Shown here in pieces: positions 18,467-25,125 of a stretch of 64,000 nt of DNA; the first letter of the stretch is position 1; every line of letters starts with the position of its first letter. Made by a program: the position numbers and the translations under genes. Source of the DNA: Actinomycetales bacterium (GTDB taxonomy: Bacteria > Actinomycetota > Actinomycetes > S36-B12); assembly GCA_016125355.1 (NCBI GenBank), contig WGLX01000017.1, positions 1 through 64,000 on the forward strand, given 5' to 3'. The notes beneath the pieces were generated by a model. It did no database searches. It was given only the letters and a program-made list of their open reading frames with translations, and was not told the origin of the DNA.

Positions 18467-19825
18467 ATGACTGCGACAACCGACCGCACTGACCTGCCCA
18501 CGAACGGTGTCGCCCAGGAGCGACGCCTCGTGACCGACATCCCCGGACCGCGGTCCCAGGCCCTCCAGATGCGCAAGACCTCGGCCGTCTCCGGCGGCGT
18601 GGGGGTCACCCTCCCGGTCTACGTCGTCAAGGCGGGCGGCGGGGTCCTCGTCGACGTCGACGACAACCACTTGATCGACATGGGCTCCGGCATCGCCGTC
18701 ACCACCGTCGGCAACGCCAACCCGGAGGTCGTCGCGGGCGTCCAGAAGCAGGTCGAGGAGTTCACCCACACCTGCTTCATGGTCACGCCCTACGCCGGCT
18801 ACGTGGAGGTCTGCGAGGCCCTCAATCGGCTGACCCCCGGTGACCACGAGAAGCGGTCGGCCCTGTTCAACTCCGGCGCGGAGGCGGTCGAGAACGCCGT
18901 CAAGATCGCGCGCGCCTACACCAAGCGGACGGCGGTCGTGGTGGTGGAGCACGGCTACCACGGCCGCACCAACCTCACCATGGCCCTGACGGCGAAGTCG
19001 ATGCCCTACAAGCACTCGTTCGGCCCGTTCGCCCCCGAGGTCTATCGCGTGCCGACGTCCTACCCGTTCCGCGACCGCGGCCTGAAGGGCCCGGAGATGG
19101 CGAAGATCGCCACCACCCGGATCGAGAAGGAGATCGGCGCCGAGAACGTTGCCGCGATCATCATCGAGCCCATCCAGGGCGAGGGCGGCTTCATCGTGCC
19201 CGGCGACGGCTACTTCTCGGCCATGGCCGACTTCGCCACGGCCAACGGCATCGTCTTCGTCGCCGACGAGATCCAGTCCGGGTTCTGCCGGACCGGCGAC
19301 TGGTTCGCCAGCGAGTACGAAGGGGTCGTTCCCGACCTCATCACGACCGCGAAGGGCATCGCGGGCGGCATGCCGCTGGCCGCCGTCACCGGTCGCGCCG
19401 AGATCATGGACTCCGTCCACGCGGGCGGCCTGGGCGGCACGTACGGCGGCAACCCCGTCGCGTGCGCGGCGGCCCTCGGCGCCATCCGCTGGATGGAGGA
19501 CAACGACGCGAACGCCCTGGCCAAGGAGATCGAGGCGCTCATGGTGCCGAGGCTGAAGGCCATGGCCGAGCAGTTCCCCTCGATCGGGGACATCCGGGGT
19601 CGCGGCGCCATGCTGGCCATCGAGCTCGTCAAGCCGGGCACCTTGGATCCGGACGCCGAGCTGGCGGCCGCCCTCAACAAGTACTGCCACGCGCACGGCG
19701 TGGTCACGCTGACGACCGGCACCTACGGGAACGTCTTCCGCTTCCTGCCCCCGCTCACGATGCCCAAGGCCCTGCTGGAGGAGGCCCTCACGGTCCTCGA
19801 GCAGGCTTTCGAAGCCCACGCCTAG
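18467..19825 (+). CDS. gabT: 4-aminobutyrate aminotransferase
   Basis: This is a class III PLP aminotransferase that moves the GABA amino group to 2-oxoglutarate, giving succinate semialdehyde. 5-Aminovalerate is a common second substrate. The 452-aa protein has FNSGAEAVENAVKIAR, the hinge EPIQGEGGFIVP, DEIQSGFCRTG, and TTAKGIAGGMPL with PLP Lys296. The start is ATG 18467 behind GGGAGG. A TAGGCT (18435-18440) could be a -10, but no good -35 is visible, which fits activator dependence. A PotD gene follows 13 bp downstream, presumably in the same transcript. Confidence 0.94.
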   Translation: MTATTDRTDLPTNGVAQERRLVTDIPGPRSQALQMRKTSAVSGGVGVTLPVYVVKAGGGVLVDVDDNHLIDMGSGIAVTTVGNANPEVVAGVQKQVEEFTHTCFMVTPYAGYVEVCEALNRLTPGDHEKRSALFNSGAEAVENAVKIARAYTKRTAVVVVEHGYHGRTNLTMALTAKSMPYKHSFGPFAPEVYRVPTSYPFRDRGLKGPEMAKIATTRIEKEIGAENVAAIIIEPIQGEGGFIVPGDGYFSAMADFATANGIVFVADEIQSGFCRTGDWFASEYEGVVPDLITTAKGIAGGMPLAAVTGRAEIMDSVHAGGLGGTYGGNPVACAAALGAIRWMEDNDANALAKEIEALMVPRLKAMAEQFPSIGDIRGRGAMLAIELVKPGTLDPDAELAAALNKYCHAHGVVTLTTGTYGNVFRFLPPLTMPKALLEEALTVLEQAFEAHA

Positions 19826-19838
19826 ACGAGGAGATCAG

Positions 19839-21050
19839 ATGACGGGCCCCCTGGCCAGCCGCCCACTCACCCGACGACGGGTGCTGACGACGGGAGGCAT
19901 CGGGCTCGCCGGCCTGGTGGCAGCCGCATGCGGCACTGACGCGACAGGTGTGGAGGAAACCGCGCCCGCGGCGGCATCGCAGAGCGCAACCCCCACTCCC
20001 GTCGCCACGGCTCAGGACCTCTCGGACACGGAGAAGATCGTCCAGTTCTCCAACTGGCCTCAGTACATCGACGAGGACGAGGGAGAGGGCTCCACCCTCG
20101 GCGACTTCACGGCCGCCACCGGTATCGAGGTCGCCTACACCGACGACATCAACGACAGCAACGAGTTCTACGCCAAGGTGCGCACCAGTCTGGAGCAGGG
20201 CAACAGCATCGACCGGGACATCGTCGTGCTCACTGAGGAGGGCGTCGAGACCTGGATCGCCAACGGCTTCGCGGCCAAGCTGGACAAGGCCAACATCCCC
20301 AACGGGGTGAAGCTCATCCCGGCCCTGCAGGACGTGCCCTTCGATCCGGGCCGTGAGTACTCGCTGCCGTGGCAGTCCGGATTCACGGGCATCGGCTGGA
20401 ATGCGCCGCTGCTCAAGCGTGAGCTGGGCGTCAGCGAGATCACAAGCTTCGACCAGTTCTTCGACCCCAAGCTCAAGGGCCGGGTGACGATCCTCGTCGA
20501 GATGCCGGACACGATGGGCCTGCTGATGAACTGGCAGGGGTACGACATGGCCAACTTCACCACGGACCAGTTCGACCAGACCCTCGCGATGCTGCAGCAG
20601 AAGATCGATGAGGGCTTCATCCGCCAGGTGACCGGAAACGACTACATCTCGGCGCTGGACAGCGGCGACGCCATCGCGTCGATCGGCTGGTCCGGGGACG
20701 TGCTTGCCCTCGGGAAGAAGTACGGCTTCGGCATTCCCGAGTCGGGCGGCATGATCTGGGCCGACAACATGCTCATCCCGTCGGTGGCGACGCACAAGAA
20801 GAACGCCGAGACGCTGATGAACTACTACTACGACCCCGTCGTGGCGGCGCGCGTGGCGGCGTGGGTCCAGTACGTGTGCCCGGTCTCGGGCGCCCAGGAC
20901 GCCATGGCCGACGTCGACCCGGAGCTGGTCGATGACCCGTGGATCTTCCCGACCCCGGAACTGCTGGCCACCGCAGAGGAGTTCATGTACCTCGGTCCGC
21001 AGCTTCGCGAGGAGTACACCCGGAAGTTCCTCAAGGCTGTCAGCGTCTAG
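19839..21050 (+). CDS. Polyamine ABC transporter substrate-binding lipoprotein (PotD-like), orphan
   Basis: This 403-aa extracellular binding protein has a Tat-type leader (TRRRVLTTG) and lipobox AAAC with Cys31. The mature protein has the PotD/PotF pattern: SNWPQYIDEDEG, NDSNEFYAKVRT, DIVVLTEEGVETW, FDPGREYSLPWQSGF and SIGWSGDVLALG. It is clearly a paralogue of the PotD at 29613, sharing long identical stretches such as KLDKANIPN and FDPGREYSLPWQSGF. No permease or ATPase genes are attached. It probably docks on the PotABC complex encoded at 26.7-29.6 kb. It is co-directional with gabT. Confidence 0.92.
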   Translation: MTGPLASRPLTRRRVLTTGGIGLAGLVAAACGTDATGVEETAPAAASQSATPTPVATAQDLSDTEKIVQFSNWPQYIDEDEGEGSTLGDFTAATGIEVAYTDDINDSNEFYAKVRTSLEQGNSIDRDIVVLTEEGVETWIANGFAAKLDKANIPNGVKLIPALQDVPFDPGREYSLPWQSGFTGIGWNAPLLKRELGVSEITSFDQFFDPKLKGRVTILVEMPDTMGLLMNWQGYDMANFTTDQFDQTLAMLQQKIDEGFIRQVTGNDYISALDSGDAIASIGWSGDVLALGKKYGFGIPESGGMIWADNMLIPSVATHKKNAETLMNYYYDPVVAARVAAWVQYVCPVSGAQDAMADVDPELVDDPWIFPTPELLATAEEFMYLGPQLREEYTRKFLKAVSV

Positions 21051-21116
21051 CCGACCCTCACCGGCGGCCGTCCACAGCTCGTCCGCCGCCGGTTGTGGCG
21101 CGGCGGCGAATCCGCC

Positions 21117-21131
21117 TACCGTCGCCACGTG
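21117..21131 (+). promoter_or_regulatory. Possible leaderless promoter, small secreted protein
   Basis: TACCGT at 21117-21122 lies six bases before GTG 21129, and TTGTGG lies 18 bp upstream of it. The layout is the same as at the DUF222 gene. The -10 match is modest. Confidence 0.35.
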
Positions 21132-21527
21132 ACGGCACCTGCGGCGATCCTGGCGACGCTGGCGGCGATGGCGCTCGGGCCCACGGTCGACATCGGCACA
21201 GCACCTCACTACTACTGGCGCTGGTCCGACGGCAGCACGGCGGCAGTCCGGACTCTCGACGAGCGCGTGTCCGGACTGCCGCCTGCCATCGTCGTCACCG
21301 CCGATCCTGCACGCGCCGGTCGGCTGGTCGAACTCCAGTTCCGGTCGGCGTCAGGCTGGCGAACGGAGGATGCGACCCGCACGGACCGCTCAGGTCGCGC
21401 GCGGCTCGAGGTGAATCCCTACTGCGCCGATGGCGCCTGGTGCCGGGGCTCCCTCAGCTACCGGTTGCGCGTCGATGGCCGGTCGGCGACGTTGCGGCTG
21501 CGCTTCAGCCCCGCCGCTTCCGGCTAG
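21129..21527 (+). CDS. Small secreted protein of unknown function
   Basis: I do not recognise this 132-aa protein. It begins VTAPAAILATLAAMALGPTVDIGTA, a short signal-peptide-like stretch. The rest is beta-rich (AIVVTADPARAGRLVELQFRS, RLRVDGRSATLRLRFSP), as in a single immunoglobulin-like extracellular domain. Two Cys residues (YCADGAWCRG) could form a disulfide. Its 3' end overlaps the convergent Gre gene by 23 bp. A purely antisense open frame cannot be fully excluded, but the signal peptide and domain-like strand pattern favour a real gene. Confidence 0.5.
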   Translation: MTAPAAILATLAAMALGPTVDIGTAPHYYWRWSDGSTAAVRTLDERVSGLPPAIVVTADPARAGRLVELQFRSASGWRTEDATRTDRSGRARLEVNPYCADGAWCRGSLSYRLRVDGRSATLRLRFSPAASG

Positions 21528-21987
21528 CCCGAGGGCGCGGCACGTCCAGGACGGTGCACGTCCAGCGGCCGGCCGGCGCATCGACCGGCACCTCGTCGCC
21601 GGCACGTGCACCCATGAGAGCTCGGCCAAGCGGGGACTCCACGGAAATGCGCTCATCGTCGAGGGCGGCCTCCTCCGGGTGCACCGGTCGCACCCATGCT
21701 CGACTGCCATCCGCCAGGCGGATGCGGACTCGCGAGCCGAGCACGACGGTGGAGCCGGCGGGCTCGTCGAGGATGCGGGCCCGCGCGAGCACGCCATCCA
21801 TCCTCGTGACCTCCGCGAGCAGGTCCTCGAACTGGGTCACGGCCGCCTCATCGCGATCGGGCCCGTAGAGGAACGGCCGGAGAGCGGGAATCTGGCGATC
21901 CCTGATGTCGGTGACGCGGTCGGACAGCAGTCGGGCGCCGTCAGCGGTCAGGGCGATCTCGCGGGAGTGGACGATGGATGCGGACAT
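21505..21987 (-). CDS. GreA/GreB-family transcription elongation factor under Mn riboswitch
   Basis: This is a 160-aa Gre-type factor. Its C-terminal FKBP-like domain is recognisable: STVVLGSRVRIRLADGSRAW, then ISVESPLGRALMGARAGDEV and VDAPAGRW. Gre factors enter the RNA polymerase secondary channel and stimulate cleavage of backtracked RNA through two acidic residues at a coiled-coil tip. Here the N-terminal part is divergent. DRDEAAV (about residues 44-50) may be the acidic tip, replacing the usual GDxSENAEY pattern, so cleavage activity is uncertain. The start is ATG 21987 with a strong AAGGAGGA. The leader is a manganese riboswitch, which is unusual for this family. Confidence 0.85.
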   Translation of the reverse strand: MSASIVHSREIALTADGARLLSDRVTDIRDRQIPALRPFLYGPDRDEAAVTQFEDLLAEVTRMDGVLARARILDEPAGSTVVLGSRVRIRLADGSRAWVRPVHPEEAALDDERISVESPLGRALMGARAGDEVPVDAPAGRWTCTVLDVPRPRASRKRRG

Positions 21988-22029
21988 GGGTCCTCCTTGT
22001 GTCAGGGCGGCAGACACCGCCACATGGCA
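21988..22029 (-). promoter_or_regulatory. Riboswitch expression platform (SD-sequestering hairpin)
   Basis: In the transcript, CACAAGG (complement of 21995-22001), which is part of CACAAGGAGGA, can pair with CCTTGTG (complement of 22028-22034) from the aptamer 3' strand. Between them GGCGG and CCGCC form an inner stem. The pairing hides the Shine-Dalgarno sequence of the Gre gene. It is mutually exclusive with aptamer helix P1, which predicts translation ON when metal is bound. Confidence 0.7.
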
Positions 22030-22132
22030 CAAGGTCTCTCCCACCGATCGGCTGAGCCGACCGGCCCGGCAACCGGGTCCTCGATGGCGAGGGCCGTACT
22101 GACGATCCACCGGCGAAGGGTTACTCCCCTTG
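22030..22132 (-). ncRNA. yybP-ykoY manganese riboswitch aptamer
   Basis: Read on the minus strand, the leader begins CAAGGGGAGTAACCC, the conserved 5' loop element (GGGGAGTA) of the yybP-ykoY class. It continues with CGTCAGTACGG and the stem CCCGGTTGCCGGG, and ends GGGAGAGACCTTGTGCC, carrying the conserved GAGACCTT 3' element. P1 is formed by CAAGG (22128-22132) and CCTTG (22030-22034). The class senses Mn2+ and usually controls Mn exporters (MntP, TerC and UPF0016 families, P-type ATPases). Here the only gene downstream is a Gre-family factor. Confidence 0.9.
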
Positions 22133-22177
22133 ATAGCCCTACTCTGCCACACGTTCAGGCAGCGCGCACCCCGATGG

Positions 22178-23392
22178 TCACGACTGGCTGTCGCGAATCC
22201 CGAAGGGCTGCTCGTAGCCCTTGCTCATCAGGGTCAGGAACGGCATGGCGTCGAAGGCCTCCGGGCCCAGCACTCCCGTGCCCGCCCATTCGCCCTTGGC
22301 CAGCAGCTCGAGGGCGATCACCGGGTTCATCGCCGTCTGCCAGACCACGGCTTGGGTGCCGTACTCCGCCATCGTCCACTCGTTGTCAGCCACGTGGTAC
22401 AGGTAGACCTCGCGGGGCTCCCCGTTGGTTCCCGTGCCCGTCACCCACGTGCCCGCACACGTCTTGCCCGACATCTTGTCGCCCAGCGTGGCCGGATCGG
22501 GAAGGGCCGCCGCCACCACGTCACGCGGGCTGACCTGCTGCCCCTTGACGCTGACCGGCTCGGTGCGGTCGAGCCCCAGCTTGTGCAGGGTCTTGAGGAC
22601 GTCGATGAACTCGTCCCCCAAGCCGTACTTGAAGGTCACGCGCTTGCAGTCGATCCAGCGGGGCACGAGGAGCACCTCCTCGTGCTCGACGTTGATGACC
22701 TCGACCGGCCCGATGCCCTCGGGGAAGTCGAAGACCTCCGGCTCGGAGAACGGCTCGGTCGTGTACCACCCGCGGTCCTTCTCCCAGATGACCGGCGGAT
22801 TCAGGCATTCCTCGATGGTGGTCCAGATGGAGAACGACGGCGCGAAGTCGTAGCCCTCGACGACCAGGTTGGCGCCATCGCGGATGCCAATCTCGTCGAT
22901 CTCACTGAACATGTGATCCGCCGCGAAGCGCGCGAAGACGTCGGCGAGGCCCGGCTCGACGCCCATGCCGCACAGCGCCAGTCGTCCGGCGGCCTTCCAG
23001 GCCTGCTCCTGGGCGAACTGCTCGTCACCGAGCTTCACGCCCACCTCGCTGAACGGGTGGGTGGGGCTCGGCCGCGACAGGCTCATCGCCGTATCCATGT
23101 AGTCTGCGCCCGCCGCGAATGCCCCGTTGAAGATCGGCATGACGAAGCGGGGATCGATGACATTGAGCACATGGGTGATCTGGTGTTCGCGGCACAGCTG
23201 CGCGACCGCATCCGCGTCCGACGCGTCCACCTGGGCCGCCGTGAAGCGGCGGTCCCCGACGCGGTCGACCACCGCGGCGGCGCGGGCCACGTCGTAGTCG
23301 GCCACGACGCAGTGCTCGAAGAAGTCGCGTCGCGCGGCGATCAGTGCGGCTGAGGTCCCGACGCCGCCGGCTCCGATGATGAGGATTCGCAT
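22178..23392 (-). CDS. Saccharopine dehydrogenase-like (LYS9 fold) enzyme
   Basis: This is a 404-aa NAD(P)-dependent enzyme beginning MRILIIGAGGVGTSAALIAARR, a Rossmann GxGxxG. Further motifs are TAAQVDASDADAV, HVLNVIDPRFVMPIFNGAF, DYMDTAMSL and LCGMGVEPGLADVFARF, which match saccharopine and carboxy(nor)spermidine dehydrogenases. In a polyamine locus a carboxyspermidine-type or aminoaldehyde-linked secondary-amine reaction is plausible; lysine catabolism is the alternative. The start is ATG 23392, where the nucleotide-binding strand begins. It is divergent from a MarR regulator with inverted repeats between. The Mn riboswitch begins 46 bp after its stop. Confidence 0.85.
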   Translation of the reverse strand: MRILIIGAGGVGTSAALIAARRDFFEHCVVADYDVARAAAVVDRVGDRRFTAAQVDASDADAVAQLCREHQITHVLNVIDPRFVMPIFNGAFAAGADYMDTAMSLSRPSPTHPFSEVGVKLGDEQFAQEQAWKAAGRLALCGMGVEPGLADVFARFAADHMFSEIDEIGIRDGANLVVEGYDFAPSFSIWTTIEECLNPPVIWEKDRGWYTTEPFSEPEVFDFPEGIGPVEVINVEHEEVLLVPRWIDCKRVTFKYGLGDEFIDVLKTLHKLGLDRTEPVSVKGQQVSPRDVVAAALPDPATLGDKMSGKTCAGTWVTGTGTNGEPREVYLYHVADNEWTMAEYGTQAVVWQTAMNPVIALELLAKGEWAGTGVLGPEAFDAMPFLTLMSKGYEQPFGIRDSQS

Positions 23393-23455
23393 GACTGTCC
23401 CGTTCAGGTACGGGGGCGCGGGGTGCGCCTTCCCTGTGCTGCTCACACGCTAGTG

Positions 23456-23489
23456 CATAAGGGGTTTATGTATGGCATAAGGCTCTTAT
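23456..23489. promoter_or_regulatory. Two inverted-repeat operators in marR / saccharopine-DH gap
   Basis: Two perfect inverted repeats lie close together in an AT-rich patch. CATAA-ggggt-TTATG is at 23456-23470 and ATAAG-gct-CTTAT is at 23477-23489, just upstream of the MarR start at 23501. Spacing and symmetry fit MarR dimers that repress both divergent genes. Confidence 0.65.
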
Positions 23490-23500
23490 ACAGTGTGCGC

Positions 23501-24106
23501 ATGTCCTTCCACATCCCGGCGGATGCGCCCCGGCCGCCCCGACGCGGACCCCGGGCGGACCGCGCGTTCGCGGCCAACGTGCTGGGCACCCTGTGCCAGA
23601 CCGTCACCGACCGCGTGACTCTAGGGATGGAGGCAGCCGCCGGACGAGGCGCAGCCACGCCCGCGGCACTCGTCACCCTGCTCTGGTATCCCGACCGGCC
23701 GATCGCCTTCCTCGCCACCCGCCTGCGCATCACCCATCCCGGGGCCGTGCAGCTCTCGGAGCGTCTCGAGAGGGCGGGGCTCGTCGAGCGGGTACCGGGC
23801 GAGGACGGGCGCACGAAGCTGCTCGCACTCACGCCCGAGGGCGAAGAGGTCGCCCTGGAGGTCCTCGCCGCCCGCCGGGACGTCCTGACCCGCGCGGTCT
23901 CGGCCCTCGACGACGACCAGATGCGGGGGCTGATCGAGGCGACGGACGCCATGCTGGACGCCCTCGCCGACAGCGAGCTCACCAGCGAGTTCATGTGCCG
24001 ACTCTGCGACGAGCTCGCCTGCCCCGACGCTCGCTGCCCCGTCGAACGGGCCGTTCCCACTCCCCCGCACCGGCGCGGGACCGGCTACGGCGTTGAGGAG
24101 GACTGA
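23501..24106 (+). CDS. MarR family regulator with C-terminal Cys cluster
   Basis: This is a 201-aa winged-helix regulator. The DNA-binding region is PAALVTLLWYPDRPIAFLATRLRITHPGAVQLSERLERAGLVER, followed by the wing VPGEDGRTKLLALTPEGEE. A C-terminal extension has FMCRLCDELACPDARCPVE, a C-x2-C-x4-C-x4-C cluster that suggests metal or redox sensing. The start is ATG 23501; upstream in-frame starts would overlap the operators. It is divergent from the saccharopine-dehydrogenase-like gene and convergent with the ureohydrolase, overlapping by 22 bp at the 3' ends. Confidence 0.88.
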   Translation: MSFHIPADAPRPPRRGPRADRAFAANVLGTLCQTVTDRVTLGMEAAAGRGAATPAALVTLLWYPDRPIAFLATRLRITHPGAVQLSERLERAGLVERVPGEDGRTKLLALTPEGEEVALEVLAARRDVLTRAVSALDDDQMRGLIEATDAMLDALADSELTSEFMCRLCDELACPDARCPVERAVPTPPHRRGTGYGVEED

Positions 24107-25125
24107 TCCGGCCGGTAGTCCTCGAGCAATGGAGCACCAGGCCGCCACGCGGCACCGCCGGCGGCGTCCCGCCGACGACGGGCGATCGCGGACAGCGCCT
24201 CGAGCACGACCCGGTTGCCCAGGAGGGCGGTGATGTCCGCGTGGTCGTAGGGGGGTGCCACTTCGACCACGTCCATGCCGACCACGGGCAGCTCGTAGCA
24301 GATCCGTCGCACGGCATCGAGTAGCTGTCGCGCCGACAGCCCACCGGGCTCGGGGGTGCCGGTTCCGGGGGCGTGGCCGGGATCGCACACATCGATGTCC
24401 ACGCTGAGGAACACGCCGTCGCAGTCGTCCAGCGCCGTGGCGAATGCCTCCGTCAGGCAGGGTTCGAGGCCGCGTTCGACGATCTCCGTCATCTCGTAGC
24501 TGCGCATGCCCTGCTCCGCCATCCACGCGAGGGTCTCCGGCGGTGGCCAGTAGCCCCGCAGGCCGATCTGCAGGAAGCGATCCCCCCGCGCCGCCCCGGA
24601 CTCGATGAGGCGTCGCATCGGCTGTCCGTGCCCGATGAGCGAGCCGAAGCTGCTGTCGCCGGTATCGGCATGCGCGTCGAAGTGCAGGACCGAGATCCGG
24701 CCCCAGCCCCGCGCCCGGGCAACCCCGGTCACATCCGGCCAGGTGATGGTGTGGTCACCGCCCAGGACGAGCGGCATCGCACCCTGCTCCGCGATCGCCT
24801 GCACCACCGGCTCCAGGGCGGCGCAGGACCGGACGGCGTCCCCGCTGAACATCTCGACGTCGCCCGCGTCGTACACCCGGAGGTCCCGGAGGCCGTCGAC
24901 GCCGAGGGCGAGCGAGGGGCGTGAGCCATCGTGCTCCAGGTAGCAGGCGGCCCTCAGCGCCGCGGGCCCGAAGCGGGCGCCACTTCGGTACGACGTTCCG
25001 CCGTCGAACGGCGCGCCCACGATGACGACATCCGCATCCGCGTACGTCTCCGGCTCGTCGGCAGAACAGCGCCCGACGCCGAGGAAGGTGTAGTTCGGTC
25101 CGAACATCGACCCGTAGCGAGCCAT
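24085..25125 (-). CDS. speB: Agmatinase-type ureohydrolase (Mn-dependent)
   Basis: This is a 346-aa member of the arginase/agmatinase family, which hydrolyses a guanidino group to urea and an amine. All six binuclear-Mn ligands are visible: His125 in GGDHT; Asp150, His152 and Asp154 in DAHAD; and Asp243 and Asp245 in SVDIDVCDPGHAPGTG. The GTGTPEPGG motif favours agmatinase, guanidinobutyrase or guanidinopropionase over arginase. Agmatine to putrescine fits the locus. It is the last gene of the long minus-strand polyamine operon, 28 bp after the oxidoreductase. The symbol is tentative because the substrate is unproven. Confidence 0.88.
   Translation of the reverse strand: MARYGSMFGPNYTFLGVGRCSADEPETYADADVVIVGAPFDGGTSYRSGARFGPAALRAACYLEHDGSRPSLALGVDGLRDLRVYDAGDVEMFSGDAVRSCAALEPVVQAIAEQGAMPLVLGGDHTITWPDVTGVARARGWGRISVLHFDAHADTGDSSFGSLIGHGQPMRRLIESGAARGDRFLQIGLRGYWPPPETLAWMAEQGMRSYEMTEIVERGLEPCLTEAFATALDDCDGVFLSVDIDVCDPGHAPGTGTPEPGGLSARQLLDAVRRICYELPVVGMDVVEVAPPYDHADITALLGNRVVLEALSAIARRRRDAAGGAAWRPGAPLLEDYRPDQSSSTP

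Follow-up and report, generated by a model that had tools for sequence, protein, structure and literature searches.

Introduction

The closest described counterpart of the leader analyzed herein is the yybP-ykoY riboswitch (RF00080), which is found with meeY/ykoY in B. subtilis, mntP and alx in E. coli, and terC in C. glutamicum, and whose known targets are mainly transporters. The proteins most like the product of the gene that follows are GreA/GreB and the Gfh factors of Thermus/Deinococcus, where Gfh1 is an anti-cleavage paralogue of GreA. A GDT1/UPF0016 transporter is under yybP-ykoY control in 328 of the 333 screened bacterial strains that carry this transporter (PMC7380456), the terC gene of C. 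glutamicum (cg2157) has a yybP-ykoY leader on record in Rfam (PMC3890552), and Mn2+ stabilizes P1.1 in this riboswitch class (PMC6754395). On the side of transcription, replacement of Mg2+ by Mn2+ causes misincorporation by RNA polymerase, and GreA and GreB mitigate the inhibition of E. coli growth by Mn2+ (PMC3335489). The enhanced pausing brought about by Deinococcus Gfh factors has also been linked to Mn2+ (PMC6722170).

We propose that a leader on the minus strand of the window (the whole 64,000-nt stretch of DNA that was analyzed) is a Mn2+-responsive translational ON switch of the yybP-ykoY class that would make a Gre/Gfh factor able to adjust RNA polymerase, and we give this reading as a whole a probability of about 0.8. 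The riboswitch class is known and its Gre-family target is apparently new, at least to us. As the original prediction had supposed, no report of a manganese riboswitch paired with a Gre factor was found among 5.39 million open-access papers, and the tables of the founding papers could still hold a gre entry.

Materials and Methods

A pattern scan was run over 84,980 species genomes, and leaders among the matches listed were used for a covariance model, termed R1, built from 61 yybP-ykoY leaders with those of the gre group excluded. The collecting pattern demanded GGGGAGTA, TCGTCANYACG, and GAGACC, so that the invariance of these letters in R1 is by construction, and the helices were not demanded.

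Results

A Leader of the yybP-ykoY Class

Every sequence feature named in the original prediction was found by inspection on the minus strand (Table 1), and R1 matches the element over its full length (model positions 1–106, 61 bits, E = 5.8e-15), the second-best R1 match in the window being at E = 0.27. The core has the letters of the class in both L1 (GGGGAGUA..GAGACC) and L3 (CGUCA..AC), and it is arranged as in the described members, with the same P1/L1/P1.2, P3 with L3 and CCGG, and P4. It differs from them in its short L3, which reads CGUCANNACG and falls two letters short of the form in Rfam and E. coli, in the lack of a current Rfam match, and in having an RNA polymerase-binding factor as its predicted target. 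The first pair of P1.2 is an A-A mismatch. Neither a promoter nor a terminator was recognized. The neighbors of the gre unit (window positions 18467–25125) encode a class-III aminotransferase, a solute-binding protein, a saccharopine-dehydrogenase-like protein, and an arginase-family enzyme, and they resemble genes of polyamine use.

TABLE 1. Predicted riboswitch elements and the gre-like gene, in window positions.
Feature	Position	Strand	Basis
Mn2+ (yybP-ykoY) riboswitch aptamer, predicted	22024..22138	-	R1 covariance match
P1 5' strand CAAGG	22128..22132	-	sequence; covariation among relatives
L1 5' strand GGGGAGUA, initial GG shared with P1	22122..22129	-	sequence; in nearly all relatives
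P3 arm: P3a, L3 strand, P3b hairpin, CCGG	22066..22113	-	R1 match, folding, covariation
L3 strand UCGUCAGUACG	22105-22095	-	sequence
P4 hairpin, 9 pairs	22044..22064	-	folding, covariation
L1 3' side and P1 3' strand GAGACCUUG	22030..22038	-	sequence
GAGACC	22038-22033	-	sequence
CCUUG, P1 3' strand	22034-22030	-	sequence
CCUUGUG, proposed switching strand	22034-22028	-	sequence; anti-SD pairing test
Anti-P1 segment and Shine-Dalgarno region	21992..22001	-	sequence, pairing test, folding
CACAAGG, anti-P1 segment	22001-21995	-	sequence
Shine-Dalgarno (SD) AAGGAGG, overlapped by CACAAGG	21998-21992	-	sequence
ATG start of gre-like gene	21987	-	sequence
gre-like gene; 160-aa product of Gre/Gfh fold, tip RDE (most relatives RDER)	21505..21987	-	PF01272, fold matches

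The Rfam covariance match that had been expected at about 22030–22132 on the minus strand was not obtained, as RF00080 gave no match to the element at its gathering cut-off nor at E values up to 10. However, the E. coli mntP leader, a validated member of the class, also falls below that cut-off (41.6 bits against 45), and hence a score with RF00080 says little about membership, and its failure reflects an insensitive model rather than the element. A Paenibacillus leader scores 43.9 bits with RF00080, and the leaders before terC in Mycolicibacterium, Nocardioides, and Amycolatopsis have no match to it. In Rfam 15 the model has 177 positions, does not include P1, and misses actinobacterial members. 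At permissive thresholds the Rfam matches at the element were due to chance only. A SECIS-like match (14.3 bits, E = 6.9) is likewise due to chance.

Among the matches listed, the leaders from the pattern scan came from Bacillaceae, Paenibacillus, Proteobacteria, Chloroflexi, and Actinobacteria, and the actinobacterial ones were mostly located before terC. The helices of R1 covary strongly (score 0.638 versus 0.232 when shuffled), and within the order the model matches the majority of gre or terC loci, with 43–81 bits. P1, P3, P3b, and P4 covary, and the covariation score of the helices was 0.454 in an alignment that was not structure-fitted, versus 0.175 when shuffled (0/500). Sequence comparison thus bears out a leader of the yybP-ykoY class of manganese riboswitches in front of a Gre-family gene, and the RNA would be expected to bind Mn2+.

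Linkage to gre and terC

The genome itself has exactly two R1 matches, one before the gre-like gene and the other before a terC gene. Close relatives of the gre-like gene are present in 38 of the 148 genomes of the order, and a survey of riboswitch sites upstream of Gre genes, as suggested at the outset, placed the element ahead of the gene, and in the same orientation, in 32 of these 38, where well under one would be expected by chance (an estimate that takes about one riboswitch per genome). It was not detected in the other six genomes, for at least one of which a contig end is the explanation. The gap between riboswitch and gre is 37–347 nt in 22 genomes from several families and 1076–1405 nt in 10, with a TerC-family ORF lying between the two in the loci examined, and the order riboswitch-terC-gre is also seen at one locus (L193) in another family of the same taxonomic class. 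The link is lineage-restricted, since Gre-like proteins from further classes of this phylum (L196–L224) are without such a leader. Plasmid records gave only weak partial gre matches.

In one member of the order the same element precedes a gene for a GDT1/UPF0016 divalent cation antiporter (L232:101-840; genome G007, contig 36). Partner genes of the terC and GDT1/UPF0016 types argue for Mn2+ sensing by the element in this lineage, and the case for a manganese role rests most strongly on the terC-gre linkage, which the original prediction had overlooked. Other neighbors were also seen. At two loci (L157:1501-1970 and L160) the riboswitch lies before a gene for a PGPGW-family membrane protein, and PGPGW-like ORFs lie between terC and gre at three (L006, L008, and L014). 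Several genomes have second copies of the riboswitch (L225–L230) before small lipoprotein-like ORFs, at times followed by terC, and the one such ORF that was scanned had no Pfam match. In one genus, SAM-IV riboswitches are located some 1–1.5 kb from gre (L022, L023, L025, L027, and L030).

A Divergent Gre/Gfh-Fold Protein

The leader does lie directly before a Gre-family gene, whose product contains the GreA_GreB C-terminal domain (PF01272, E = 7.9e-17, cut-off passed). The predicted Gre identity is therefore borne out at the level of the superfamily and this domain, and not for a cleavage-stimulating Gre. The Pfam GreA N-terminal domain was matched in none of 24 members, the scores of the protein with the NCBIfam GreA model (55.6 bits, cut-off 145) and with TIGR01462 (54.6, cut-off 139) are far below the curated thresholds, and none of the NCBIfam models examined was above cut-off for the subfamily. 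The tip RDER is common to 24 aligned relatives (D46 invariant; R45, E47, and R48 at 90% or more) and reads RDEA in the window protein, with the acidic pair D46/E47 kept, and the coiled-coil region is nine residues shorter than that of the GreA of the same genome. As this canonical GreA, with a DLKEN tip, is encoded on another contig, the gre-like gene product is a divergent Gre/Gfh-fold factor and not the housekeeping GreA.

The AlphaFold model has a Gre fold (mean pLDDT 82.3) with Gfh1 and GreA as its best Foldseek matches, and the PDB sequence search ranked Gfh1 of Thermus first. Gfh1 and the gre-like protein are both GreA paralogues of the secondary-channel type with a common fold and about 30–33% identity over the matched region, but the latter differs in its RDER tip, shorter coiled coil, control by a riboswitch, and phylum. 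With GreA/GreB it has the C-terminal domain and overall fold in common, but not the N-terminal match or the DLxEN tip. A second group of actinobacterial Gre-like proteins (L197–L208 and L214) has the motif DDPTIVELGDEV and neither an RDER tip nor this riboswitch.

P1 and Anti-Shine-Dalgarno Pairing

The P1 3' strand CCUUGUG has two alternative possible partners, CAAGG in P1 and the CACAAGG that overlaps AAGGAGG, and this use of the P1 3' strand is the mode of switching of the known class. As the anti-Shine-Dalgarno helix of a single sequence is within chance (p = 0.34), pairing was evaluated across species, and the alternative pairing of the original prediction proved to be conserved. The two strands change together among relatives (CCUUGUG/CACAAGG, CCUUCGG/CCGAAGG, and CCUUCGAC/GUCGGAGG), with a mean of 6.84 bp for the own partners versus 5.48 for shuffled partners (0/5000, in a shuffle that ignores relatedness). 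The free fold of a longer leader forms the anti-Shine-Dalgarno hairpin, and the folding z-score of the leader alone, −1.36, is uninformative. The model energies are −72.4 kcal/mol with P1 only and −80.4 kcal/mol with the anti-Shine-Dalgarno pairing, the Shine-Dalgarno sequence being still partly paired when the P1 state is enforced, and these energies do not discriminate between the two states of the switch. The covarying pairing between the aptamer 3' strand and the Shine-Dalgarno sequence fits a translational ON switch, and from this pairing, the anti-Shine-Dalgarno fold, and the stabilization of P1.1 by Mn2+ (PMC6754395), Mn2+ is predicted to turn translation on.

Discussion

Alternative Explanations

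The absence of an RF00080 match at any threshold would be accounted for if the element belonged to some other RNA class, responding to a different ion or ligand and sharing its L1 and L3 letters with yybP-ykoY. We regard this as improbable, as the element has the same five helices together with L1, L3, and CCGG, its R1 match is full length, and a Paenibacillus leader in the R1 training set is itself matched by RF00080 (E = 1.5e-8), in addition to the terC and GDT1 partners and the Rfam leader of C. glutamicum terC (PMC3890552). Just as improbable, if not slightly more so, is that the leader is left over from a terC unit that has decayed, and that it has lost its control of gre. The 10 relatives with terC between switch and gre (1.1–1.4 kb) do show how gene loss could bring the two together, but the direct arrangement recurs in 22 genomes of several families and the anti-Shine-Dalgarno pairing fits the Shine-Dalgarno sequence of gre itself.

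The two readings of the protein are much closer. It may be Gfh-like, pausing or inhibiting RNA polymerase at high Mn2+ rather than stimulating cleavage, for which we see even odds: Gfh1 gives the top PDB sequence and Foldseek matches, the RDER tip is without the GreA DLxEN motif, the coil is short, and Mn2+ has been linked to Deinococcus Gfh pausing (PMC6722170), although the likeness to several Gfh1 chains is mostly C-terminal (VIA-align residues 75–150) and the retained D46/E47 could still hold a metal. Those conserved acidic residues, together with Mn2+-induced misincorporation and the mitigation by GreA/GreB of Mn2+ inhibition in E. coli (PMC3335489), would suit a GreA-type cleavage factor that rescues misincorporated complexes, but the tip motif and coil length are unlike those of GreA and the genome already has a canonical GreA, making this a possible but less probable role. 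On the basis of tip and coil, the Gfh-like reading is thus slightly ahead. Hence the transcription-protection response first envisaged stands as one of two readings, next to a Gfh-like pausing role for a protein whose closest match is Gfh1.

Proposed Mechanism and Implications

In the mechanism that we favor, at low Mn2+ the aptamer 3' strand CCUUGUG would pair with CACAAGG and mask the Shine-Dalgarno sequence, and the docking of Mn2+ between L1 and L3 would hold P1 (CAAGG/CCUUG) and expose the ribosome site. The product then translated would be a specialized factor of the Gre/Gfh family for the secondary channel of RNA polymerase, which many relatives probably co-regulate with the TerC manganese transporter, and once Mn2+ enters the active site this factor may adjust RNA polymerase, either by rescue of misincorporated complexes or through pausing. 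That such a factor should be induced by Mn2+ is supported by the mitigation by GreA/GreB (PMC3335489) and by Gfh pausing (PMC6722170), two opposite effects on the polymerase. Judged from comparative sequence evidence, putative manganese control of an RNA polymerase secondary-channel factor is well supported, and the protein would be expected to act on RNA polymerase. More tentatively, and at slightly less than even odds, the unnamed actinobacterial RDER-tip Gre/Gfh subfamily may be made only at high Mn2+ and may use active-site Mn2+ to alter pausing or fidelity, with RNA polymerase as a target of the riboswitch regulon, which would give global transcription a layer of control that senses metal.

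The current Rfam model overlooks actinobacterial manganese riboswitches, and the finding points to a Gre/Gfh subfamily without a name. The conserved partner of the riboswitch is a factor of RNA polymerase, an enzyme with a fidelity reportedly lowered by Mn2+, and the linkage suggests that transcription itself is adjusted at high manganese in these cells. The long-standing idea that Mn2+ toxicity is in part a transcription problem thereby becomes directly testable.
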